Source: an uncultured Alphaproteobacteria bacterium (GTDB lineage Bacteria > Pseudomonadota > Alphaproteobacteria > UBA7985 > CAJQQZ01). Taken from it: DNA of 32,474 nucleotides. Positions 5,783-32,474 of this stretch are shown piece by piece; position 1 is the first letter of the stretch; every line of letters begins with the position of its first letter. A program made the translations under genes and the position numbers. The notes below the pieces were generated by a model. It saw nothing but the letters and a program-made list of their open reading frames with translations, was not told the DNA's origin and made no database searches. Location of the stretch: contig CAJQQZ010000172.1 of the NCBI GenBank assembly GCA_905480575.1, positions 1-32,474 on the forward strand, read 5' to 3'.

Positions 5783-7450
5783 TTATTCTCCCAGTTGATC
5801 AGCGGTCAGACCGTAGTCCTCGCAAGCTTTTTCCAAAGTTAAGTACCCGCGACGGACGTCACGTTTGATCAGCTCGACATCGCGGTCTTTAGGATTTCCG
5901 TAACCTGCACCGCCGGGGAAGGCAAGCAAGACTGTGCGCCCTTCAGGAACCGACTGACGGCCTTTTCCACGCATCGGCGTACCGTCATCAAGGCCGATCA
6001 TGGTGGCGCCTCCCGGTGCACCACCATTGCGACCACGGGCTGGATGATCAACACGGTCAAGCATGGCAGAGAAGTCGAGATCCCAACCTTCGCGCACTGT
6101 GACTTCCATGTATTGTCCTAGGCCACCACGATGTTTACCGGCACCACCTGAGTCCGGCCTCAGCTCTTTGCGAGTTACTATGACTGGTCCGGCATGCTCT
6201 GTCGCTTCCACGGGCATGGTCATCACACCAGATGGAAATGCCGTTGCATTCATCCCATCCATGGTTGGTCGAGCGCCGGCACCACCGGAGTTGAACATCA
6301 AAACCTCTGATGGTTGAGCGCCAGCCGGCGCCCTCAAGTTCGGCTTCATAGAGACCTGGAAATTACACAGTGCTGCGGCACCTTCAGCCTGAACGGTTTC
6401 GGGCAACATCTGATCTAAAGCCCCGAACACAACATCAGGGATCATGTGACCAATTACATGTCGCAAGGCAACAGGTGCCGGATGGACTGCATTGACAATA
6501 GCACCTTCAGGAGCGATGACCTTGAAAGGTGCCAGTGAAGCCGTATTGTTTGGTATTTCTGGAGCAATCGCAACTTTCAAAGCGTAACAAGCATAGGCCT
6601 GTGTGTAGACAAGCGGCACGTTAATGCCCTTCTTATCGACTGGATCTGTGCCCGCAAAATCTGCGAGAATGTGGTCATCTTTAAACGTCAGTTTCACCTG
6701 TAGTTTGATCGGCGTATCAAAGCCATCAATTGTCATGTCATAAGAAGCCGGCTCACTTTTGGGCAAAGCTTTGATGGCTTCAATCGTCGCCTTGTGAGAG
6801 TGCTCAAGAATAAAAGCGCCGATCTCTTCCAGGCCATCGAGATCAAACTCATTCAACATCTCAATCAAACGACGATGGCCAATCTCGTTGCATGTCGCCA
6901 GTGCGTACATATCCCCGATCAGTTGATCGGGCTCTCGAACATTTATCCGGATGATTTTTACAAAAGTTTCGTCGACTTTGCCACGTTCCGCGAATTTCAT
7001 AATCGGGATGCGAACACCCTCTTCGTAAACCGAGTTAGCATCCGCGCCAAAGCCGCGACCACCAATATCCACAATATGTGCTGTACAGGCAAAAAAGCCC
7101 ACATGCTTGCCCTTGTGAAAAGTTGGCGATGTGACGGTGATATCATGGAGATGCCCAGTACCCTTCCAAGGGTCATTGGTGATGTAGACATCATCTTCAA
7201 AAATATTCTCAGGGCCGATTTCACGAATGAAATGTTTGACTGACTCAGCCATAGCGTTGACGTGACCAGGCGTGCCTGTCACGGCCTGTGCGAGCATCAG
7301 GCCTTGCTTATTGTAGACACCGGCAGAGAGATCGCCAGCTTCGCGGACAGACGTCGAGAATGCTGTGCGGATCAAAGCCTGAGCCTGTTCTTCAACGACT
7401 GAAATCAGGCGGTTCCACATGACCTGTTGTGATACGGATGAAAGGCTCAT
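5783..7450 (-). CDS. hyuB: Hydantoinase B / oxoprolinase-family subunit (HyuB)
   Basis: A 555-residue HyuB-family protein, partner of HyuA in ATP-dependent opening of cyclic amides (N-methylhydantoin, 5-oxoproline or similar) or in related carboxylases. Visible hallmarks are the NDPWKGTGHLHDITV motif, AHIVDIGGRGFG, the VRHVIGHMIPDVVFGAL-like region near LRHVIGHM, RPTMDGMNATAFPSG, and the Gly-rich tail LLAFPGGAGYGNPKDRD. Length is normal for the family. The start codon overlaps the hyuA stop by 4 bases (ATGA), the usual coupling of subunits made in equal amounts. The hydantoinase B superfamily has many substrates, so the reaction is not fixed by the sequence. Confidence 0.88.
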   Translation of the reverse strand: MSLSSVSQQVMWNRLISVVEEQAQALIRTAFSTSVREAGDLSAGVYNKQGLMLAQAVTGTPGHVNAMAESVKHFIREIGPENIFEDDVYITNDPWKGTGHLHDITVTSPTFHKGKHVGFFACTAHIVDIGGRGFGADANSVYEEGVRIPIMKFAERGKVDETFVKIIRINVREPDQLIGDMYALATCNEIGHRRLIEMLNEFDLDGLEEIGAFILEHSHKATIEAIKALPKSEPASYDMTIDGFDTPIKLQVKLTFKDDHILADFAGTDPVDKKGINVPLVYTQAYACYALKVAIAPEIPNNTASLAPFKVIAPEGAIVNAVHPAPVALRHVIGHMIPDVVFGALDQMLPETVQAEGAAALCNFQVSMKPNLRAPAGAQPSEVLMFNSGGAGARPTMDGMNATAFPSGVMTMPVEATEHAGPVIVTRKELRPDSGGAGKHRGGLGQYMEVTVREGWDLDFSAMLDRVDHPARGRNGGAPGGATMIGLDDGTPMRGKGRQSVPEGRTVLLAFPGGAGYGNPKDRDVELIKRDVRRGYLTLEKACEDYGLTADQLGE

Positions 7451-9540
7451 GCACTTTCTCCTTTTGCTATAATCTTAGAAATGACCATTGTCCCATCAGA
7501 TGCGAGCTCAGCTGCAAAGCCTTTGGGCACAACGATGGTTGTTTCATCCTCAGTGATAATCAGCGGTCCAATGGCACTGTCGCCCGTTGAGAACTGCACA
7601 CGTTCAATGACCGAAGCCTCAACGATCTCTTCCAACGCAGGCTCGAACAGATTTCTTGTAGCACTCGCGTTCAGTCTTTTGCCTGATGCAGCTTTCAATC
7701 CATCCGCTTTCGCTGCCGGTGTGGCAGCGTTCACAGACCAACAGGTCACCTCAATATCAAGTCCAGCAACGGTTCTGCCAAAGAGTTTAGCGTATTCCTG
7801 CTCAAACTCCTGCTTCAGCATTTCTGAGGTTGGCTTGGCCGCCTGTTCCGCCGTCAGAACTACAGGGATTTCCCACCCCTGACCGATGTAGCGGATAAAA
7901 GCCTTGTAGTCGGCAGCGACGGGTGCCTCCGCATCGCAAGAGCGAACAAAACTGGTTGCTTCTTCTGTCAATTCCTTCAGCAAAGATGCGATGAGTTCCT
8001 CGTCGAAGGAAGAAAGTCGCACGTAAACTGATCTGGACGCCTCGAACGAAAATGGCGCTTTCAGGAAGCCAATGGCTGAACCAACCCCAGCGCCCGATGG
8101 CACCAAGAGCCGATCAATTCCGAGCTTCTGACAAAGTCTGCCAGCATGCAAAGGTGCGGCGCCACCAAAAGCGATCATGGAATAAGTCGCCAGGTCTTCG
8201 CCGTTCTCAACCGCATGAACACGTGCAGCATTAGCCATGTTTTCATCAACCACCTCGGATACCCCAAAAGCTGCTGTTGTTTCATCGAGGGAGAGTTTGG
8301 ACCCAACCTCGGCGTTCAAAGCCGCTTTAGAGTTCTCGGTTGAGAGAGGAATTGATCCTCCGGCGAAATTATCTGGATCAAGTCGGCCCAAAACCAAATC
8401 AGCATCTGTCACTGCTGGGCGCAAACCGCCGCGCTTGTAACATGCAGGACCAGGCTCAGAACCTGCAGACTCAGGGCCGACACGAATTTGCTGCATCGCG
8501 TCGACGTGTGCAAGCGAACCACCACCAGCGCCGATCTCAACCATATCGATCACAGGAATCGAAATCGGCATGCCAGAACCTTTCTTAAAGCGGTAAGTTC
8601 TAGCGACTTCGAACACGCGGCTTGTTTTTGGTGTTTGGTCTTTGATCAGGCAGATCTTTGCTGTCGTACCGCCCATGTCAAAGGATAGCACTCTATCCAT
8701 GCCGTGGGATTTTGCGATGTGAGCCGCAAAGATTGCGCCACCAGCCGGGCCTGACTCAACCAAGCGAACAGGAAACTCAGCGGCACTCTCAAGCGAGATG
8801 ATCCCACCGCCCGAGTGCATGAGAAAGATCGGACAGTCAGCGCCGAGTTCCTTCACACGGTCGGAAAGGCGCGACAAATAGGATTTCATCTGCGGTTTCA
8901 CGTAAGCATTCGCTGCAGCTGTATTGAAGCGCTCATACTCACGCATCTGCGGCGAGACCTCCGATGAAAGAGAGGTCATCAAATCCGGCAATTTTGCTTC
9001 GAGCACTTCTCTGACCATGCGCTCATGGTTGTCGTTCAGATAGGAGTGAAGAAAACCAACAGCAACTGATTCAATGCCATCACTCGTCAACTGTTCTGCA
9101 AGGGCTTCGACCTCTTGACGGTCAAGTGCCTTAATGATTTTACCCGTGGCATCAACCCGTTCGTCCAAAACGAAACGGCGTTCACGCTCGATCAATGGTT
9201 CAGGGAGAGAAAGGTTGAGATCGTACTGTTCGAACCGACTTTCTGTGCGCATCTCTATGACATCGCGGAAGCCTTTGGTTGTTATTAAGGCTGTCTTTGC
9301 TCCGCGACGCTCAATCAACGAATTAGTCGCCAGCGTCGTTCCATGAACCAGAATCGAAATTTCAGTAGGGTCCACAGAAGCCTTTTCACAAACTTGACCG
9401 ATACCATCCAGGATCGCATCCTCAGGCGCAGAATAGGTTGTCAGTACCTTGGTAGAAAAGATTTGGCCATCAACATCTATGACGACATCTGTGAATGTGC
9501 CACCGATATCAGCGCCTAGTTTTACAGTTCGTTTTGACAT
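7447..9540 (-). CDS. hyuA: Hydantoinase A / oxoprolinase-family subunit (HyuA)
   Basis: A 697-residue HyuA-family ATPase subunit. It starts with the actin-like phosphate motif GADIGGTFTDVVID (about 8-21). It continues with VHGTTLATNSLIERRGAKTALITTKGFRD, the second phosphate-binding region RVLSFDMGGTTAKICLI, and GPESAGSEPGPACYKRGG with VTDADLVLGRL. The C-terminal part carries the HyuA tail TRNLFEP...GDSAIGPLIITEDETTIVVPKGF. It would phosphorylate or activate the cyclic substrate with ATP, with HyuB completing hydrolysis. It is the first gene of the five-gene operon ending at 3003. The LysR-cupin pair lies directly upstream on the same strand and could regulate it. The substrate could be N-methylhydantoin, which would yield a sarcosine precursor, but 5-oxoproline or other lactams are equally allowed. 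Confidence 0.88.
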   Translation of the reverse strand: MSKRTVKLGADIGGTFTDVVIDVDGQIFSTKVLTTYSAPEDAILDGIGQVCEKASVDPTEISILVHGTTLATNSLIERRGAKTALITTKGFRDVIEMRTESRFEQYDLNLSLPEPLIERERRFVLDERVDATGKIIKALDRQEVEALAEQLTSDGIESVAVGFLHSYLNDNHERMVREVLEAKLPDLMTSLSSEVSPQMREYERFNTAAANAYVKPQMKSYLSRLSDRVKELGADCPIFLMHSGGGIISLESAAEFPVRLVESGPAGGAIFAAHIAKSHGMDRVLSFDMGGTTAKICLIKDQTPKTSRVFEVARTYRFKKGSGMPISIPVIDMVEIGAGGGSLAHVDAMQQIRVGPESAGSEPGPACYKRGGLRPAVTDADLVLGRLDPDNFAGGSIPLSTENSKAALNAEVGSKLSLDETTAAFGVSEVVDENMANAARVHAVENGEDLATYSMIAFGGAAPLHAGRLCQKLGIDRLLVPSGAGVGSAIGFLKAPFSFEASRSVYVRLSSFDEELIASLLKELTEEATSFVRSCDAEAPVAADYKAFIRYIGQGWEIPVVLTAEQAAKPTSEMLKQEFEQEYAKLFGRTVAGLDIEVTCWSVNAATPAAKADGLKAASGKRLNASATRNLFEPALEEIVEASVIERVQFSTGDSAIGPLIITEDETTIVVPKGFAAELASDGTMVISKIIAKGESA

Positions 9541-15195: not shown

Positions 15196-15756
15196 TTAGA
15201 CGATCTCAGCGCCAAACTGACCGGCGCCAGCTTCCAACATTTCCCAGAGTGAAAGTGCGAAACCGCGGGGAAGGAACAGTTCAAATCCCTCTTCCGACCG
15301 CCAGACAGCCACACCAACATGGTGAAAAGCAGTTGAGGCAACGGAACCGACCGGAAAGGCTGCTTCAGATAAATTGATCGGCAGATGACGGTTCAACAAC
15401 GTTGTCGCATTTTCACCCGACAAACGAATATGGGTACGAGAATGGGATACATCCAAGGTCGCCCCCTCCGAAGAAGCAAGCGAAGGTGCTTCTGCGCCGT
15501 AAAGCCACCATTTCATTGGCTCGATGCGCAGCATGGCTCCTTTTGAGCCATGAGAGGCAGAACAAGGTCCAGGAGCTTCTTTGGCTCCGACAGCGGTCGC
15601 TCCCTTCTTGCCAACGGCGTCCATCGTGTCGACCCAGCCAGCGATCTGGTGGAGTGTGAGGTCACGGACTTCAGTTAAAGTGATGCCAATGGATCCCTCT
15701 TTGCCGTAACGGCGCGGATTATAATGCCCTTCTAGAGCTGAAATGCGATTAGCCAT
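15196..15756 (-). CDS. soxG: Sarcosine oxidase gamma subunit
   Basis: A 186-residue small subunit of heterotetrameric sarcosine oxidase, with the YgfZ/GcvT-like fold. The family traits visible are LHQIAGWVDTMDAVGKK, LRIEPMKWWLYG, DVSHSRTHIRLSGENATTLLNRHLPINL, FPVGSVASTAFHHVGVAVW and FELFLPRGFALSLWEML. I place the start at the ATG at 15756 (MANRISALEGHYNPRR). It has AGGGGAG about 9 bases upstream and an 8-base overlap with the soxA stop. A longer frame to 15798 has no better site. Last gene of soxBDAG, followed by the terminator at 15138-15171. Its role is structural, holding the THF-binding half of the alpha subunit. Confidence 0.88.
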   Translation of the reverse strand: MANRISALEGHYNPRRYGKEGSIGITLTEVRDLTLHQIAGWVDTMDAVGKKGATAVGAKEAPGPCSASHGSKGAMLRIEPMKWWLYGAEAPSLASSEGATLDVSHSRTHIRLSGENATTLLNRHLPINLSEAAFPVGSVASTAFHHVGVAVWRSEEGFELFLPRGFALSLWEMLEAGAGQFGAEIV

Positions 15757-18724
15757 GCATTCTCTCCCCTTTTGGATCGTACATATGCGGTGAGACAATC
15801 TCCACTTCGACGTCCCCTGCTCGGGTCGGATCCGAAGCGATCAAGGTCTTTCCTTCCCAGGCTTTGTAGCCTCCTTCGAGGAAGCCAACACCAAGCCAAT
15901 GCCCAAAGGATGGCGAATGCGTGACGCCGGTTGTCCAACCAACACCAAAGCCAGACACCTTACCTTTCTCACAGAGAATGGCTCCAGCGTTGAACTTCTT
16001 GCTGCGGTCGACTGGGAAGATACCAACCAACTGCGGGCGTCCTTCCTTAGCCATTTCTGGCCGCTTGCGAAGAACATTGCCGATGTAGTCTTTCTTCTTC
16101 GACGCCATGCCACCGAGGCCAGCGTCTTCAATCGTGACACGCCCATCAAGCTCCGTGCCTGTAACGTGCCCCTTCTCAACCCGCATCGCTCCAAGGGCTT
16201 CAGTTCCGTACAGGCAACCGCCAACTTTAGTCGTTTCCTCCCAAAGCATGTCCATCAAATCACGGGAGTAATCTGAAGGAACGTAAGCCTCGTAAGCCAT
16301 CTCACCTGAGAACGAAATCCTGGCTATTCTTACCGGAATACCGCCCTTCAACGTTGTCTGAGTAACGCCCATAAAGGGAAGTTCGTCATTGGTCACTTCA
16401 GCAGCATTAGAAGCGATCTTTGAAAGCACGTTGCGTGACTCAGGCCCTGCAATGGCGATACCGGCCCATTGCTCTGACACTGAAGTCACATGAACCTTTA
16501 GATCCTGCCAACGGGTTTGCAGAAGCTCTTCTAACCAGACCATAACTTTGGCGGCGTGTGCTGTCGTCGTCGTCATGAAGTATTCGTCTTCGCTCAAACG
16601 CCATGTCGTGCCATCGTCCATCACCATGCCATCATCGCGAAGCATGATGCCGTAGCGTGCTTTACCAATGGCCAGCTTAGCAAAAGCATTGGTGTAGATG
16701 CGGTTCAGGAATGTTGTTGCATCAGGGCCTTGCACAGCAATCTTACCCAACGACGTCACATCACAAAGGCCAACTTTGTTACGCGTGATTTCCGTCTCAC
16801 GAATGTAAGCCTCTGAAATGCCTTCGCCTTTCTCGGGGAAGTACCAAGGACGATGCCAAAGACCGGCCTCCATCATGACCGCACCCTTTTCAAGGTTCCA
16901 GGCATTCATTGGTGTACGACGAAGCGGACGGAAGTGATCGTAAACACCGCGACCCGTCAAAGCACCAAGAGAGATCGGCGTGTAGGGTGGGCGGAAAGTT
17001 GTCGTTCCAACCTCTGGGATATCTTTACCCAGAGCTTCGGCCATCAAGGCAATGCCGATGATATTGCCCATTTTGCCTTGGTCGGTTGCCATGCCCAGCG
17101 TCGTGTAACGCTTAAGGTGTTCGACAGAAACAAAGCCTTCGAGATGCGCCAAACGAACGTCATCCGATGTCACATCATGCTGAGGGTCAATAAAGGACTT
17201 GAGCTTGTGGCTATCAACGCGCACTTCATAGAGAGGCTCGATGGGGTTCTCCCATCCCGCGTTAGCCGGAGCAGATACTTGAGTTTTCGAAACACCCAAC
17301 GCGTTCATAGCTTGAGTGGCAGCAGCGCGACCGGACGCGATGCAGTCTTCACGGTTCCAGTGCCCCGTTGCAGAACCCGCAACAGCCAAGGGCTCATTGC
17401 TCTCAACCGGCATGAAACAAGCATTCTCATGGTTCCACACTGGCTTGACACCACGATGTGAAAGTAAGTTCACAACCGGTGACCAGCCACATGAGATCAG
17501 AGCCAAATCACATGAAACAGTGCCAGCATGATGCCAGCCATGGTCCGAGTTAGAGGCGTACTCAAGTTTCTTGATCCCCTTGGGACCGTGCGCTCTCATC
17601 GGTGCAGCATTGAATGTGATATCGATACCTGCGCCAGATGCCATTTCAGCGGTAGCACCAGCAATTGTTTCACGAGCGTCCAACATTGAAACGCTGGCAC
17701 CGGCCCCCGCCAAATCAGCGGCCACAGAATAAGCGGAATCGTTGTTAGTTGAGATGACGATGTTCTCGCCAGCCAAAACGCCATGACGGTTGAGGTAGGC
17801 AGCACCAGCGTTGGCGGTCATGATACCTGGGCGGTCGTTGTGACCAAAGGCGACGTGACGTTCAAGTGAACCCGAAGCAACAATCGTGTATTTCGCCCGC
17901 ACAGTCCAAAACCGCTGACGAGGCATGTAGTCAGGCGCTTCTGCCATATGATCGGTTACACGCTCCAACAAACCTGCAACACCGTAATCGTAGAGACCAA
18001 AAGCGGTGGTTCTTGTCATCACCCGGATGTTCGATGCTTCAACAGCAGCGATCAGATCTAAATCACCAGCGCGATTGAGATCATCGCCGCCCAGCATAAA
18101 GTCTTGCTCGACCAACAAAACATCAAGACCAGCATCAGAGGCTTCAAGGGCAGCGGTCAATCCAGCGGGACCTGAACCTACAACCATCACATCACAAAAG
18201 TCATGACCATGTTCGTAAGTATCAGGGTCAAATTCACGCGACGCTCTGCCCATACCGGCGGCGTTGCGAATGACCTTCTCATACTGCATCCATAGCCAAG
18301 TACCTTTGCTACCCCACTCGAAAGGCGGCAAGCCCATGAAGGTCTTGTAATAGAAACCGGCGGCGAAGAACTTATTGAACAAATTGTTCACACCACCAAA
18401 GTCAAAACGCACAGATGGGAAAGCGTTCTGCCCAGAAGCCATCAGACCGTCGTAGAGTTCTTGCGTTGTGGCTTTTACGTTAGGGTCCTTTTTAGCACCT
18501 TCGCCAATGGTGACGATTGCACCAGACTCTTCAACACCAGCTGACATGATACCACGAGGTCGGTGATACTTAAAACTACGGCCTAAAACGTTCTCACCGT
18601 TTGCCATCAAAGCAGAGGCGAGAGTATCTCCAGCATAACCGTTGTAGATATTGCCATCCCATTTGAATGAAAGGGACTGGCTGCGATCAATACGACCGCC
18701 AGATGAAAGGCGTTTTGCGGTCAT
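15749..18724 (-). CDS. soxA: Sarcosine oxidase alpha subunit
   Basis: A 991-residue alpha subunit of the cytoplasmic heterotetrameric sarcosine oxidase, which turns sarcosine, O2 and THF into glycine, H2O2 and 5,10-methylene-THF. The N-terminal ferredoxin-like part has GYAGDTLASALMANGENVLG and FKYHRPRGIMSAG. The NAD/FAD domain has VVGSGPAGLTAALEASDAG from 181 and the second nucleotide motif VISTNNDSAYSVAADLAGAG. The C-terminal third is a GcvT-like THF-binding domain (EAGLWHRPWYFPEKGE, CDVTSLGKIAVQGPDA, RISFSGEMAYE, GTEALGAMRVEKGH). Length is normal and no frameshift is seen. The start overlaps the soxD stop by 4 bases and the end overlaps soxG. The GcvT domain could be mistaken for DMSP demethylase, but the whole architecture is SoxA. 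Confidence 0.95.
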   Translation of the reverse strand: MTAKRLSSGGRIDRSQSLSFKWDGNIYNGYAGDTLASALMANGENVLGRSFKYHRPRGIMSAGVEESGAIVTIGEGAKKDPNVKATTQELYDGLMASGQNAFPSVRFDFGGVNNLFNKFFAAGFYYKTFMGLPPFEWGSKGTWLWMQYEKVIRNAAGMGRASREFDPDTYEHGHDFCDVMVVGSGPAGLTAALEASDAGLDVLLVEQDFMLGGDDLNRAGDLDLIAAVEASNIRVMTRTTAFGLYDYGVAGLLERVTDHMAEAPDYMPRQRFWTVRAKYTIVASGSLERHVAFGHNDRPGIMTANAGAAYLNRHGVLAGENIVISTNNDSAYSVAADLAGAGASVSMLDARETIAGATAEMASGAGIDITFNAAPMRAHGPKGIKKLEYASNSDHGWHHAGTVSCDLALISCGWSPVVNLLSHRGVKPVWNHENACFMPVESNEPLAVAGSATGHWNREDCIASGRAAATQAMNALGVSKTQVSAPANAGWENPIEPLYEVRVDSHKLKSFIDPQHDVTSDDVRLAHLEGFVSVEHLKRYTTLGMATDQGKMGNIIGIALMAEALGKDIPEVGTTTFRPPYTPISLGALTGRGVYDHFRPLRRTPMNAWNLEKGAVMMEAGLWHRPWYFPEKGEGISEAYIRETEITRNKVGLCDVTSLGKIAVQGPDATTFLNRIYTNAFAKLAIGKARYGIMLRDDGMVMDDGTTWRLSEDEYFMTTTTAHAAKVMVWLEELLQTRWQDLKVHVTSVSEQWAGIAIAGPESRNVLSKIASNAAEVTNDELPFMGVTQTTLKGGIPVRIARISFSGEMAYEAYVPSDYSRDLMDMLWEETTKVGGCLYGTEALGAMRVEKGHVTGTELDGRVTIEDAGLGGMASKKKDYIGNVLRKRPEMAKEGRPQLVGIFPVDRSKKFNAGAILCEKGKVSGFGVGWTTGVTHSPSFGHWLGVGFLEGGYKAWEGKTLIASDPTRAGDVEVEIVSPHMYDPKGERMHG

Positions 18725-22804: not shown

Positions 22805-23902
22805 TCATTCAGAGAGTGTCATCAAGAATGCTACTAACTGATCAATCTGACGGTGAGTCAGCCCAAGAGGTTCCAGGATTTTCTCACCTGTTTGCGGTAA
22901 GTCCTGCTCGTCAAAATCAGAGTAATGAGAAACGGCTTCAAGCAAAGTTTCGAAACGCCCGTCGTGCATATAGGGCGCTGTTTTAGAGAGTCCTCTGAGG
23001 GAGGGGACTCTAAAAGCTTTCAGTGTCTCGTGCGGTGATGTCCGATCCGGGCCATCGGATTTTTGGTCACTGAAGGCACCCGATTTGACCCAAGGATTAG
23101 CCGCCAAAATATCGAGGCCACTGTCACGCCCTTCGTCATCAACATCAGGCAATCCTATGTTATGGAATTCGTCTAGCGCAAAGTTTGGCCCATCATGACA
23201 GCGAACACAGTTAGCCTTGCCGAGGAAAAGACGCAGCCCGCGTTTGGCGTTCTTTGGGTACTCATCGATTGCAACTTTGTCGGCTTCGAGGAGTCCTTTT
23301 CTGAAACGATCAAAAGCCGTGACTTGAGAGTTCAATGTCTCCTGAAAAGCAGCAAGTGCTTTGCCCACATTCACCAGCACTTGGTCTTCGTTGTGATCTC
23401 TTGGGTTCTCTCCCGTCATTGTTTGATAGGCCAGGGAAAATTCATTGATTTCGGAAACGCGTTCACGCACCGATTCCGGTGACATACCCATTTCACGAGG
23501 ATCAAGGATCGGTCTAATCGAGGCACTCCAGAGTGTATCGGATTGTCCGCTCCAACCATACCACTGGCGTAGTCTAACATCAAAAAGGCTAGGGGTATTA
23601 CGACCCACACCTGCAATACCTTGGCCTAAGTTTAACCCATCGGTGAAAGCTCTATTCGCCTGATGACAAATACTGCAGCCCTGATCCCGATCAGGAGAGA
23701 GATCCTCAGTCTCAAAGAGCAACTTTCCAAAGGCTATGGCTTCTGCCCTCCCTGAAAATCGGTTGCTCGCGTCGCTGGTAAAAGCTTGCGGCCAGGGACC
23801 CAGAGACCGGATCTGTTCAATCTCCTTGTCTGAAAAAGAGAACGCTGAGGCGTTGGAACAGAGGGAAATCGCAAACAGTAGGCATGTAACGAATCTAACC
23901 AT
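22805..23902 (-). CDS. Diheme cytochrome c peroxidase / MauG-family protein, secreted
   Basis: A 365-residue periplasmic diheme protein. I choose the ATG at 23902 because it starts directly with a signal peptide, MVRFVTCLLFAISLCSNASAF, likely cut after ASA. The open frame extends to a TTG at 23932, but no Shine-Dalgarno supports it. Heme sites CSICH (76-80) and CVRCH (232-236) and the motif TAPYMHDGRFETLLEAVSHY with M312 identify the CcpA/MauG superfamily. It would reduce H2O2 or carry out a MauG-type oxidation in the periplasm. It is the last gene of the TMADH-like, ligase, peroxidase unit, about 54 bases after the ligase stop. Nearby oxidases make H2O2, but in another compartment, so a direct link is only a guess. 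Confidence 0.88.
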   Translation of the reverse strand: MVRFVTCLLFAISLCSNASAFSFSDKEIEQIRSLGPWPQAFTSDASNRFSGRAEAIAFGKLLFETEDLSPDRDQGCSICHQANRAFTDGLNLGQGIAGVGRNTPSLFDVRLRQWYGWSGQSDTLWSASIRPILDPREMGMSPESVRERVSEINEFSLAYQTMTGENPRDHNEDQVLVNVGKALAAFQETLNSQVTAFDRFRKGLLEADKVAIDEYPKNAKRGLRLFLGKANCVRCHDGPNFALDEFHNIGLPDVDDEGRDSGLDILAANPWVKSGAFSDQKSDGPDRTSPHETLKAFRVPSLRGLSKTAPYMHDGRFETLLEAVSHYSDFDEQDLPQTGEKILEPLGLTHRQIDQLVAFLMTLSE

Positions 23903-23956
23903 TGTTAGAAGCGAGCTCTTCGCTGGTGCCAATCAAGATTTGTCATCACGCAAAAT

Positions 23957-29541: not shown

Positions 29542-30249
29542 ATGTCGAAGGAAGTAGTTCTCATCCACCATACCGACGACAAGATAATTGACCGTGCTTA
29601 TCGGTATTTCGAAGAAAATGACTTCGACATTACTGTGAAACGACCGTTCAACGGTGATGAGTTGGGTTCTGTTTCGGAAGATCTGGCTGGCAGCGTAGTC
29701 TATGGCGGCCCTTTTAACGTTTTCGAAGAAGACAAGCACCCCTTTTTACATGAAGAAAACCGGTGGATCGTTGAGTGCATGGCGCTCGATATTCCGCTTT
29801 TGGGCATTTGTCAGGGTGCTCAATCCATCGCCCGTGTTTTAGGCGCTAATTGTGGCCCTAGACCTGGAACCCCTCGGGAGTTTGGCTATTTTGAAGTTAC
29901 GCCGACGGAAGTGGCCATAGCTGAAGATTTTTTGGTGGAGCCAACTTACTTTACGGAATCGCACTTTCATGAATTTGACCTGCCGGAGGGAGCAACGCTT
30001 TTGGCCTACAGCGAGATCTTTCCTCACCAAGCCTTTCGATATGGCGACAGAGTCTATGCCTTCCAGTTTCACGCGGAATGCACAGTTGCGGGGTTTAGCG
30101 GCTGGCAACAATCGCCTGGCCGAGTTTTTGGCAGAGATGGTGCACAAACTCTAGAAGAACAAAATCGGCTACAGTCAATCGTTGATCCGGCTCAGCACGA
30201 CTGGTTTATGAACTTCATGGCCAAATTTTTTGGCCAACCTCCTGCCTAG
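29542..30249 (+). CDS. Class I glutamine amidotransferase, GMP synthase-like stand-alone domain
   Basis: A 235-residue DJ-1/GATase1-fold protein. The nucleophile is C90 in LLGICQGAQSIARVLGA, and the catalytic His and Glu are in FQFHAEC (H177, E179). YGGPFNVFEEDKHPFLHEENRWI is the oxyanion-side region. It would hydrolyse glutamine or a gamma-glutamyl compound; no synthetase partner is adjacent, so gamma-glutamyl hydrolysis is also possible (the PuuD and GATase-hydrolase type). It is the last gene of the three-gene operon, 3 bases after the methyltransferase. Its TAG stop and the stop of the convergent small protein gene share the bases CTAG at 30246-30249, so the two genes overlap tail to tail. 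Confidence 0.82.
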   Translation: MSKEVVLIHHTDDKIIDRAYRYFEENDFDITVKRPFNGDELGSVSEDLAGSVVYGGPFNVFEEDKHPFLHEENRWIVECMALDIPLLGICQGAQSIARVLGANCGPRPGTPREFGYFEVTPTEVAIAEDFLVEPTYFTESHFHEFDLPEGATLLAYSEIFPHQAFRYGDRVYAFQFHAECTVAGFSGWQQSPGRVFGRDGAQTLEEQNRLQSIVDPAQHDWFMNFMAKFFGQPPA

Positions 30250-30617
30250 TTACCACCGCGTCTCAAGAAGTCACGTTCTCTAACCGAACGACAATAGTTG
30301 CTGTAGTAGTTTCTGCGGCTCTGACGACAACGCCGATCGCGAAGACTGAAGTCGTTGCCAAAAAAAGAGCTCTTTGGCTTTCTAAACGGCTTATGAAACC
30401 TGAACTCCCCAGGTTTGCTACGCACGATAAAACCGCTGCGGCTGCCAAAGTGACTGTTGAAAGAACCTCGCGATGAGTGTGAAAAGAATGAACTGCCTGC
30501 CAACTGCACCAGCCCTGGCTTAACAATTTGTCTCTGTGATAACGCCTGGGTAGTTAAAGCCGCTTGGGAAACAAAAGGAAACACAACGACGAACAATAAG
30601 GCTAATCCAAATCTCAT
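30246..30617 (-). CDS. Small basic secreted protein, unknown function
   Basis: A 123-residue protein. The ATG at 30617 is chosen over an upstream in-frame start because AAGGAG lies 7 bases before it and it begins with a signal peptide, MRFGLALLFVVVFPFVSQAA. The mature part is rich in Ser, Arg, Phe and Gly, with repeats of RS/RGS/RKP type (SSRGSFNSHFGSRSG, RFHKPFRKPKSS). It ends in an Arg-rich stretch with two Cys and two YY/NY pairs (CRQSRRNYYSNYCRSVRERD). It is predicted to be periplasmic or secreted and strongly basic. I recognise no family. It could be an envelope-associated or nucleic-acid-binding peptide, but that is only a guess from charge. Confidence 0.6.
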   Translation of the reverse strand: MRFGLALLFVVVFPFVSQAALTTQALSQRQIVKPGLVQLAGSSFFSHSSRGSFNSHFGSRSGFIVRSKPGEFRFHKPFRKPKSSFFGNDFSLRDRRCRQSRRNYYSNYCRSVRERDFLRRGGN

Positions 30618-30933
30618 TTGTCTTCTCCTTGATGACATGGCTTCACTCTATGCTGCTCTCTTCGCTTTGTCAGCCCGCCATTCCTCACCTCTGTTCACGA
30701 CTACGACAGAACTACTGACGCCGCCGGTCCATGGTTCTTGGCTTAGTTGGGCATACTGATTTTAGCGATTCTTAGTGAAACTCCAGCGCTTGTTGAGTAC
30801 GAGCATCGCGGTTGAATTCGCAATTTCGAGTATACATTTAGGGAAAATGACCCGCAATTTTGCAAGCTTTTGGCAGAATCGATTCGTTCTGAACGCAAAT
30901 ATGCGGGCACTTACTTCAAGAAACCTATCAAAA

Positions 30934-30963
30934 TTGGCAGCTTTAAACTAAAAATTGTATAAT
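30934..30963 (+). promoter_or_regulatory. Sigma70-type promoter for the cqsA-like gene
   Basis: TTGGCA at 30934-30939 and a perfect TATAAT at 30958-30963 are separated by 18 bases. Transcription would begin near 30970, giving a leader of about 180 bases before the TTG start of the cqsA-like gene. The good match suggests fairly strong or constitutive initiation, with control possibly in the long leader. Confidence 0.6.
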
Positions 30964-31049
30964 ATTTCATATAAATTCTCAAAAATGGAAAAATTTGCAC
31001 CTACCAAATCTTGAGGAGTTGCCGAGTCGTTTACGATAGCAATTCGCGG

Positions 31050-31088
31050 ACCGCAAAGACTCACTCTTGAGTTGCCACAATTTGCGGT
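31050..31088 (+). promoter_or_regulatory. Nested inverted repeat in the cqsA leader
   Basis: ACCGCAAA (31050-31057) and TTTGCGGT (31081-31088) are perfect 8-bp arms around a 23-base interior. That interior contains a second palindrome, ACTC-TT-GAGT (31063-31072). In RNA this could form a two-level stem-loop about 65 bases upstream of the start codon. It could equally be a DNA operator. Confidence 0.45.
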
Positions 31089-31153
31089 AAACTTTTCCAA
31101 AAAGACAAAACAAAAACAACAATAAAAACACGTTTGCTGGAAAGGGAAGTACG

Positions 31154-32359
31154 TTGCCAGATTCTGGGATAAATCATTTATTTCAGCAGGAACCCGAGTT
31201 CCTGAGGAACCGAGTGGATAACTATTATGAAGTCCGACTGAAAGGGGATTGGGCTGGAAGGCATCCGTTAAAAGGTAAGATGCCGGGCCCAACTTGCGTG
31301 CAATTGAGAACAAATGACTACCTTTGCATCGCGAACGATCCCCGCGTGATAGAAGCTGAAATTGAAGTTCTTCGAGAGGGTGGTCACGGAGATACAGCCT
31401 CGCGGGTCTGGTCATATCACCGCGCCGATCCAATCAAAGAGTTTGAGCTGCGACTTGCTAATCTTATGGGGGCTCAAGATGCTGTTCTAACCACTTCTGG
31501 CTATACAGCCAACGTAGGGCTTATCCAATCAATAGCACGTCCGGAAATTCCGATATACATGGACATGAAGGCCCATATGTCCCTTTGGCAGGGAGCAGTA
31601 AGTGCCCTAGCAAGGCCCATCCCCTTTAGACATAATAATCCTGATAGTCTCGAAACATTGCTACGCAAACATGGAGCAGGCATCATTGTTGTAGACTCTC
31701 TATACAGCACAGATGGAGCGATTGCACCGCTCGAAGACTTCGTCTTTTTGGCTGAACTTTACGGGAGTGTACTCGTCGTTGATGAGACGCACTCTTTCGG
31801 AACACAAGGCCCAAACGGTGCCGGTTTAGTGACTGCTCTCGGGTTAGCTGATCGGGTACATTTCCGCACTCTCGGTATGAGCAAAGCGGTAGCTGCGAGA
31901 GGAGGTGCCGTCGTTTGTTCACGTCGTCATGCCGAGTTTTATCGCTATGAAGCGTTCCCATCCATTTTTTCAACTGGGGTACTCCCGCACGAAGTAGCTG
32001 GTTACAACGCTGCTCTAGATATCTTCGAGCAAGAGGCATGGAGAAGAACACAGTTGCATTTGAACCATTTGCAAATTCGAAAAGGATTGGATGATCTTGG
32101 TTACAACGTTGATGCAAGTGGTGCACAAATAATCGCACTTGAATCTGGCCTCCCTTTACAAACAACTATTTTGAGGGATGCGTTAGAGGCGAGAGGTATT
32201 TTCGGGTCCGTCTTTCTTCCATCGGCCACTCCACCTTCTCGCTGCCTTGTGAGACTTTCGATTAATTGCAATCTGAGCACTGCTCAAATCGAGAGAGTAA
32301 TCGGGGCCTGTCGAGAGATTAGAGATGAAGTAGATTTAGCTGAATTAGTTCCGACTTAA
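31154..32359 (+). CDS. cqsA: CqsA-type alpha-hydroxyketone autoinducer synthase
   Basis: A 401-residue alpha-oxoamine synthase-fold PLP enzyme. PLP contacts are D210 and H213 in VVDETHSFGTQGPNGAGL, and the Schiff-base lysine is K244 in LGMSKAVAARGGAVV. Stretches shared, from memory, with Vibrio CqsA and not with BioF or KBL are AHMSLWQGA (140-148), RKHGAGIIVVDSLYSTDGAI with APLED (171-195) and GIFGSVFLPSAT (348-359). CqsA condenses an acyl-CoA with a small amine donor to make CAI-1-type signals. The start is a TTG at 31154 with GGGAAG just upstream; the first internal Met is residue 43, so no ATG fits. The gene is AT-richer than the catabolic genes, which suggests transfer. It is followed by strong hairpins and, probably, another gene past the window. 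Confidence 0.8.
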   Translation: MPDSGINHLFQQEPEFLRNRVDNYYEVRLKGDWAGRHPLKGKMPGPTCVQLRTNDYLCIANDPRVIEAEIEVLREGGHGDTASRVWSYHRADPIKEFELRLANLMGAQDAVLTTSGYTANVGLIQSIARPEIPIYMDMKAHMSLWQGAVSALARPIPFRHNNPDSLETLLRKHGAGIIVVDSLYSTDGAIAPLEDFVFLAELYGSVLVVDETHSFGTQGPNGAGLVTALGLADRVHFRTLGMSKAVAARGGAVVCSRRHAEFYRYEAFPSIFSTGVLPHEVAGYNAALDIFEQEAWRRTQLHLNHLQIRKGLDDLGYNVDASGAQIIALESGLPLQTTILRDALEARGIFGSVFLPSATPPSRCLVRLSINCNLSTAQIERVIGACREIRDEVDLAELVPT

Positions 32360-32368
32360 TCTGACATA

Positions 32369-32398
32369 GTAGTCCTTCCAGCTAGCTGGAAGGACTAC
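32369..32398. terminator. 30-bp perfect palindrome downstream of cqsA
   Basis: The 15-bp arm GTAGTCCTTCCAGCT (32369-32383) is followed at once by its exact reverse complement (32384-32398). It begins 10 bases after the cqsA stop. In RNA it would make a very stable hairpin with a tight loop. No T run follows on the plus strand, so it may be a 3'-end stabiliser, a processing site or a protein-binding palindrome rather than a classical terminator. Confidence 0.55.
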
Positions 32399-32402
32399 GT
32401 TC

Positions 32403-32470
32403 GGCTCTTGAAGGAGCCAGCCGTTTCCGGTTTTGATGTAGGTGCAAACCAAAAACATCAAACAAAGGAA
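32403..32470 (+). promoter_or_regulatory. Tandem hairpins and ribosome-binding site leading into a gene beyond the window
   Basis: GGCTC (32403-32407) pairs with GAGCC (32414-32418). TTTGATGT (32432-32439) pairs with ACATCAAA (32455-32462). Directly after the second hairpin comes AAAGGAA (32464-32470), a good Shine-Dalgarno, and the window ends 4 bases later. A plus-strand gene therefore probably begins just outside, with its translation start next to the hairpin. Confidence 0.45.
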
Positions 32471-32474
32471 ACTA

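Follow-up and report, generated by a model that had tools for sequence, protein, structure and literature searches.

A CqsA/LqsA-type autoinducer synthase gene of an uncultured alphaproteobacterium, truncated by an IS481-family insertion sequence

The synthase gene and its place among the alphaproteobacteria

The window analysed here, 32,474 nucleotides in length, is the whole of contig C172 of the draft genome G000 (GCA_905480575.1), an uncultured alphaproteobacterium whose assembly comprises 4.03 Mb in 189 contigs and is 99.83% complete. The open reading frame (ORF) 31154-32359 on the forward strand begins with TTG and encodes 401 amino acids. The features of this locus are collected in Table 1. 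Three further observations concern the rest of the window. The products of a gene pair at 5783-9540 were related to subunits of the caprolactamase/acetophenone-carboxylase type but did not reach the family cut-offs, and a large protein at 15749-18724 scored 1194 bits with the sarcosine oxidase subunit alpha family, over the cut-off of 1164. A MauG/MbnH-like di-heme enzyme, also below family cut-offs, was encoded at 22805-23932 near oxidoreductase genes.

Table 1. Positions of features in the window and the evidence for each.
Feature	Position	Strand	Basis
Right end of the same insertion sequence (IS), at the opposite contig end	1..140	-	TGTAGAAGTTCAGACCTGATCTGACAG, 51 matches in the genome
Upstream region with sister-conserved blocks, including the ribosome-binding region before TTG	30876..31153	+	Alignment with L004
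Native part of the CqsA/LqsA-family synthase gene, residues 1-395 and two bases of codon 396	31154..32340	+	NF005526, PDB CqsA, tree, dN
Codons of GHGDTASRVW (residues 77-86)	31382..31411	+	Alignment; common to the alphaproteobacterial clade
Target-site copy ATTTAGC beside the IS	32334..32340		7-bp flank matching
Left end of the IS481-family insertion sequence	32341..32474	+	50 occurrences of TGAATTAGTTCCGACTTAATCTGACA, close to contig ends

The TTG start appears credible because the sister locus L004, in the same-genus genome G001, keeps both this codon and the GGAAGGGAAGTAC ribosome-site region, in agreement with the non-ATG start given in the preliminary description of this DNA. That description also gave the gene its own promoter; a promoter-like TTGGCA-18-TATAAT site does lie at 30934-30963, but its -10 element is not conserved in the sister. 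The upstream gene order is the same in L004, with a homocysteine methyltransferase-like gene, a glutamine amidotransferase-like gene and a small reverse ORF. This small ORF (30246-30638, reverse strand) encodes 130 aa, lies after the amidotransferase-like gene and before the synthase gene, and is conserved in the sister with 140 aa.

Family identity was assessed with curated models, solved structures and a tree. The protein scored 460.6 bits against NF005526, the curated NCBIfam model of alpha-hydroxyketone autoinducer synthases, and so passed the cut-off of 428. It failed the models for BioF (236.1 bits, cut-off 426.45), glycine C-acetyltransferase or KBL (173.5, cut-off 460), SPT (at best 221.1, cut-off 500) and ALAS (151, cut-off 339). 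Its best match by sequence among solved structures was Vibrio cholerae CqsA, at E about 1e-87, with the next family at 1e-42, and when the structure of the sister protein, predicted from an alignment of the window and genome loci with a mean pLDDT of 86, was used in a fold search, its six top matches were all CqsA chains. The stretches AHMSLWQGA, IIVVDSLYST and GIFGSVF, which had been pointed out as CqsA-specific, are all present, and D210, H213 and K244, proposed as pyridoxal phosphate (PLP) residues, align with their CqsA counterparts: K244 corresponds to K236 and H213 to H205 of V. cholerae, and D210 lies within the same VDE motif. A tree of 35 proteins was built from CqsA-type, SPT, BioF/KBL and ALAS enzymes, without Legionella LqsA, and all CqsA-type enzymes split from the others at 100/100 support. 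Judged by its sequence, ORF 31154-32359 encodes a genuine alpha-hydroxyketone autoinducer synthase of the known CqsA/LqsA family, and the earlier identification as a CqsA homologue holds by model score, closest structure and clade.

Within the tree, the window protein fell inside a 12-member alphaproteobacterial clade (98/99), in a subgroup with Hyphomicrobium, Rhodomicrobium and an uncultured Hyphomicrobiaceae (99/97). Its sister is the L004 protein (100/100; 80% identity). The Vibrio, Cupriavidus and Myxococcus enzymes formed other branches, and other alphaproteobacteria formed one further branch. The synthase of Tistrella mobilis (L056) is encoded on pTM3, a 1.1-Mb plasmid typed as conjugative. 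The CqsA/LqsA family is rare in the class, since 8 of 385 genomes in an even draw of Alphaproteobacteria carried a gene over the cut-off in a patchy distribution, yet its presence there is no novelty: a list of CqsA homologues from 2013 (PMC3566124, Fig. 7) already includes Rhodomicrobium vannielii. Apart from this figure list, no publication devoted to the alpha-hydroxyketone circuits of alphaproteobacteria turned up in our literature search. Between the window genome and its sister, dN was 0.136 for the synthase and 0.23–0.26 for its neighbours, with synonymous sites saturated; the lower dN of the synthase points to selection having acted on the protein after the two genomes split.

CqsA/LqsA enzymes are PLP-dependent alpha-oxoamine synthases and turn a medium- or long-chain acyl-CoA and S-adenosylmethionine (SAM), or an aminobutyrate-type amine, into an amino- or hydroxyketone autoinducer. 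By analogy with the literature on this family, the product of the window enzyme is most likely an amino- or hydroxyketone. The substrates of CqsA itself are SAM and acyl-CoA, and the acyl pocket of the V. cholerae enzyme consists of H30, V32, F79, F257, I263, F264, C346, P348 and A349 (PMC3285556). In our alignment, four of these nine positions are identical (H37, I271, F272 and A358) and five differ (L39, W86, Y265, L355 and S357); a different acyl preference from that of V. cholerae CqsA is possible. S357 is unique to the window protein within the clade, and the other four differing residues are common to at least part of it. The segment GHGDTASRVW, in which W86 aligns with F79, had been singled out as different from Vibrio CqsA. 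It does differ, but it is not peculiar to the window gene because it is common to the whole alphaproteobacterial clade, and the GxGxxxSR motif in other oxoamine synthases, for instance the SPT loop, is similar to it.

Two other readings of the gene were weighed against these data. One is that the protein is in truth a metabolic oxoamine synthase of the BioF, KBL, SPT or ALAS type, mistaken for CqsA: these enzymes belong to the same fold superfamily, and all of their models do match the protein, at E 1e-70 to 1e-43. The protein nevertheless scores far under every one of their cut-offs and stands outside the BioF/KBL/SPT/ALAS clade; models and tree alike thus keep it apart from the three groups, BioF, KBL and SPT, whose membership the preliminary description had set against its own proposal. 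Separate ALAS and KBL genes sit elsewhere in G000, each over its own cut-off, and we rejected a metabolic identity on these three grounds, as extremely unlikely. The preliminary description had itself suggested a transferred alpha-hydroxyketone module with new acyl specificity, and a recent transfer was weighed here. The patchy occurrence of the family (the 8 of 385 genomes) and the Tistrella copy on a conjugative megaplasmid would suit a transfer, and the replacement of pocket residues F79, F257 and C346 by W, Y and L would suit a new specificity. Against transfer, however, stand the supported alphaproteobacterial clade, the conserved upstream flank in the sister and a near-normal GC content: the gene is indeed lower in GC than its surroundings, as had been noted, but by about 2 points only (48.4%, with 50.6% over the window as a whole), a small dip that recurs in the sister gene. 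Most of the pocket changes, moreover, are common to the clade. Recent horizontal transfer was discarded as an origin, and we regard the transferred module as very unlikely.

The insertion sequence at the end of the gene

The terminal 115 bases of the window recur in at least 40 places in G000, each near a contig end. The left terminal sequence of the element occurs 50 times in the genome, behind 50 differing flanks, and every flank gives way to TGAATTAGTTCCGACTTAATCTGACA at one and the same base; in the window the switch falls at 32341, inside codon 396. The right end TGTAGAAGTTCAGACCTGATCTGACAG matches the left terminal repeat at 20 of 26 bases. In longer copies of the element, the first 122 residues of an ORF match transpos_IS481 (NF033577) at E 1.3e-24, with a score of 87 bits for what is a partial protein, the cut-off of 224 holding for the whole protein. 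A comparison of left and right flanks gave 31 pairs with 7-bp matches and none in a shifted control. Because these 31 pairs share exactly 7 bases, the element makes 7-bp target duplications. It resembles the IS481 family in a transposase start that matches the family model, in terminal inverted repeats and in target duplications; it is known here from partial copies only, and its duplication is exactly 7 bp in G000. With approximately 50 copies present, about 100 contig ends in G000, both ends of the window included, are ends of this element. A mate with the 7-bp duplication was found for 29 of the 50 left ends, and 21 were mateless. About 40% of the copies, by this measure, look rearranged or incomplete.

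The first bases of the element encode the final ORF residues ELVPT and the stop codon. Because the flanks switch to IS sequence at 32341, in codon 396, the annotated stop of ORF 31154-32359 is not native, and the synthase gene is truncated, with native coding up to 32340. Approximately 19 final native residues have been replaced, including the conserved W-S-T-R-R tail. Relatives run on for about 20 residues with EVxxAxWxSTRRR, which is kept in most relatives outside Vibrio. The predicted structure of the sister protein places the end of the last core helix at residue 389, and its confidence is low for the chain beyond 401. On this model, the catalytic core of the truncated synthase is intact, since the core helices finish before the insertion. 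The complete core suggests that the truncated enzyme may still work; it could also be impaired, because the lost tail is conserved in most non-Vibrio relatives. Two candidate features were rejected in the course of this analysis. A palindrome at 32369-32398 is not the gene's own terminator, as it is part of the IS end and present in all copies, and the element at L091 (C56) is a different one and not the body of the IS in the synthase gene.

Kinase and regulator genes in related loci

Related loci were retrieved through the synthase alone. Eleven loci of the clade are complete (L005-L013, L015 and L016), and each of them has a histidine kinase gene and a response regulator gene adjoining the synthase gene. 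The Hyphomicrobium and Rhodomicrobium loci have the kinase convergent to the synthase and the regulator beyond it; the order differs in other loci. In the sister L004 the kinase gene is likewise convergent to the synthase gene, with approximately 18 bases between the stops, and the contig then ends. The preliminary description had pointed to the genes beyond the window for a CqsS/LqsS-type sensor kinase, and in the relatives such a kinase does adjoin the synthase; the window contig instead ends in the insertion sequence. The kinases of the related loci contain HisKA and HATPase domains after a hydrophobic N-terminal half. A profile of the clade kinases aligned with Vibrio CqsS over its sensor and kinase parts at 327 bits, and the motifs GFPxYYxxW, PQPYE, LPxFF, LLMN and VWxMS of the membrane part are common to both. 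The regulator's best solved relative was 6sy9 ('response regulator'), which we take to be Legionella LqsR, matched at E 1.5e-32 over almost its whole length. Judged from these similarities, the alphaproteobacterial branch is of the Lqs type, with a synthase, a CqsS/LqsS-type kinase and an LqsR-type regulator.

Compared with the CAI-1 system of Vibrio (CqsA/CqsS), the window gene shares the synthase family, the catalytic residues and four of nine acyl-pocket residues, and its relatives share an adjacent membrane kinase whose sensor half aligns with CqsS. The remaining pocket residues differ, and the W-S-T-R-R tail is absent in Vibrio. Vibrio CqsS has a C-terminal receiver domain, whereas the alphaproteobacterial kinases tested are without it, and the alphaproteobacterial loci have a separate LqsR-type regulator. 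The combination of synthase, kinase and LqsR-type regulator is that of LqsA/LqsS/LqsR in Legionella pneumophila and JqsA/JqsS/JqsR in Janthinobacterium, and the clade layout is closer to these two systems than to that of Vibrio (PMC3376566, PMC3566124). Unlike Lqs and Jqs, gene order varies among the alphaproteobacterial loci, and in the genome of the window only the synthase was found. The Rhodomicrobium row, from the genus of the R. vannielii CqsA homologue, groups with the window gene as given above (99/97), but in the Rhodomicrobium loci compared here the kinase and regulator genes are present and the tail is complete.

Other arrangements were observed outside these loci. One alphaproteobacterial genome (G011) has two unlinked CqsA-type genes (L037 and L038), each beside a histidine kinase gene, and a search of that genome with the regulator profile found no LqsR-type regulator. 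In Myxococcus, no matching kinase or LqsR-type regulator was found in the 10-kb flanks of the CqsA-type synthases (L014 and L017). An ORF of approximately 1200 residues (L178:6938-10513; G289:C86) encodes a complete HAE3/MMPL-type transporter fused to a CqsA-type synthase. The fusion also occurs in G398:C320 and G399:C26, and thus in three species of one alphaproteobacterial genus. These loci have a second, stand-alone CqsA-like gene just upstream, preceded in G289 by an RND-pump-like ORF. The fusion suggests coupled synthesis and export of the signal; no report of it turned up in a brief search of the literature.

The missing receiver genes and the proposed circuit

In G000, the sister kinase as a query found general kinases only, with a best E of 2e-10 vs. 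2e-212 in the sister genome. Single queries and a 10-row profile found no LqsR-type regulator in G000 or in G001 (84% complete), and the same profile recovered the regulators of control genomes at E 1e-93 to 1e-148. The 7-bp flank of the synthase insertion, ATTTAGC, recurs at one right end, on contig C149, and also at the left end of C78. C149 was rejected as the far side of the insertion, since C78 and C149 join into a continuous pentapeptide-repeat protein and the join to the synthase gene gives an unrelated frame. A copy of the element therefore interrupts a gene for a pentapeptide-repeat protein, the halves of which lie on C78 and C149 (L069 and L148). Because the sole right end with ATTTAGC belongs to C78, 7-bp matching yields no true mate in the assembly for the IS end in the synthase gene. 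The mateless end fits a deletion or rearrangement between IS copies; missing contigs would look alike.

We put at roughly 0.85 the probability of the following explanation, that the gene is a CqsA/LqsA synthase of an Lqs-type branch, truncated by the IS at codon 396 and parted from its kinase gene. The synthase would condense an acyl-CoA with SAM, or with an aminobutyrate-type amine, and so produce the autoinducer, an amino- or hydroxyketone; this is the chemistry expected of the family. In the alphaproteobacterial branch, a CqsS/LqsS-type histidine kinase that spans the membrane several times and is encoded next to the synthase would sense this signal, and an LqsR-type response regulator would be the third part of the circuit. 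The IS481-family element would have inserted at codon 396, exchanging the last approximately 19 residues for a few of its own, and the same insertion would have parted the synthase gene from the kinase gene that comes next in the sister genome. A working circuit in G000 is unproven, as neither kinase nor regulator was found in the genome.

What became of the kinase and regulator genes can be read in two ways. Recombination between IS copies may have deleted both, which would leave an orphan synthase that either still signals or is decaying; this is a variant of the explanation above in which a signal, if made, would be perceived by other species or through a receptor whose gene is unlinked. 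The absence of kinase and LqsR-type regulator from a 99.83%-complete assembly argues for such a loss, as does the mateless end in the synthase gene when 29 of 50 left ends have a mate. Unpaired ends are not rare, however (21 of 50), contigs between nearby IS copies may be absent from the assembly, and the completeness figure counts marker genes only, so we hold the deletion tentatively, at somewhat under an even chance. The IS may equally have come to lie between synthase and kinase with the kinase and regulator genes intact beyond it, on unassembled sequence. Gaps at IS copies are the rule in G000, where so many contig ends are IS ends, and the sister has its kinase at just that spot. No right-end flank in the assembly combines the 7-bp duplication with a kinase, and the far-side contig would have to be missing altogether; a simple separation of this kind is plausible, if short of even odds. 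That a burst of IS481 elements deleted the kinase and LqsR-type regulator and left a working synthase, and thus a bacterium that 'speaks but cannot hear', we consider unlikely. If true, this bacterium would release an alpha-hydroxyketone to which the rest of its community still responds.

Most descriptions of alpha-hydroxyketone signalling come from Vibrio and Legionella. The loci compared here form a coherent alphaproteobacterial branch with a complete synthase–kinase–LqsR set, as judged by similarity, in Hyphomicrobium, Rhodomicrobium, Niveispirillum and others. Several members of this branch are cultured, which makes the signal and its function testable without a pathogen. The window gene, in turn, indicates how the insertion of a mobile element can break up a circuit of this kind and mislead the annotation of a gene end.
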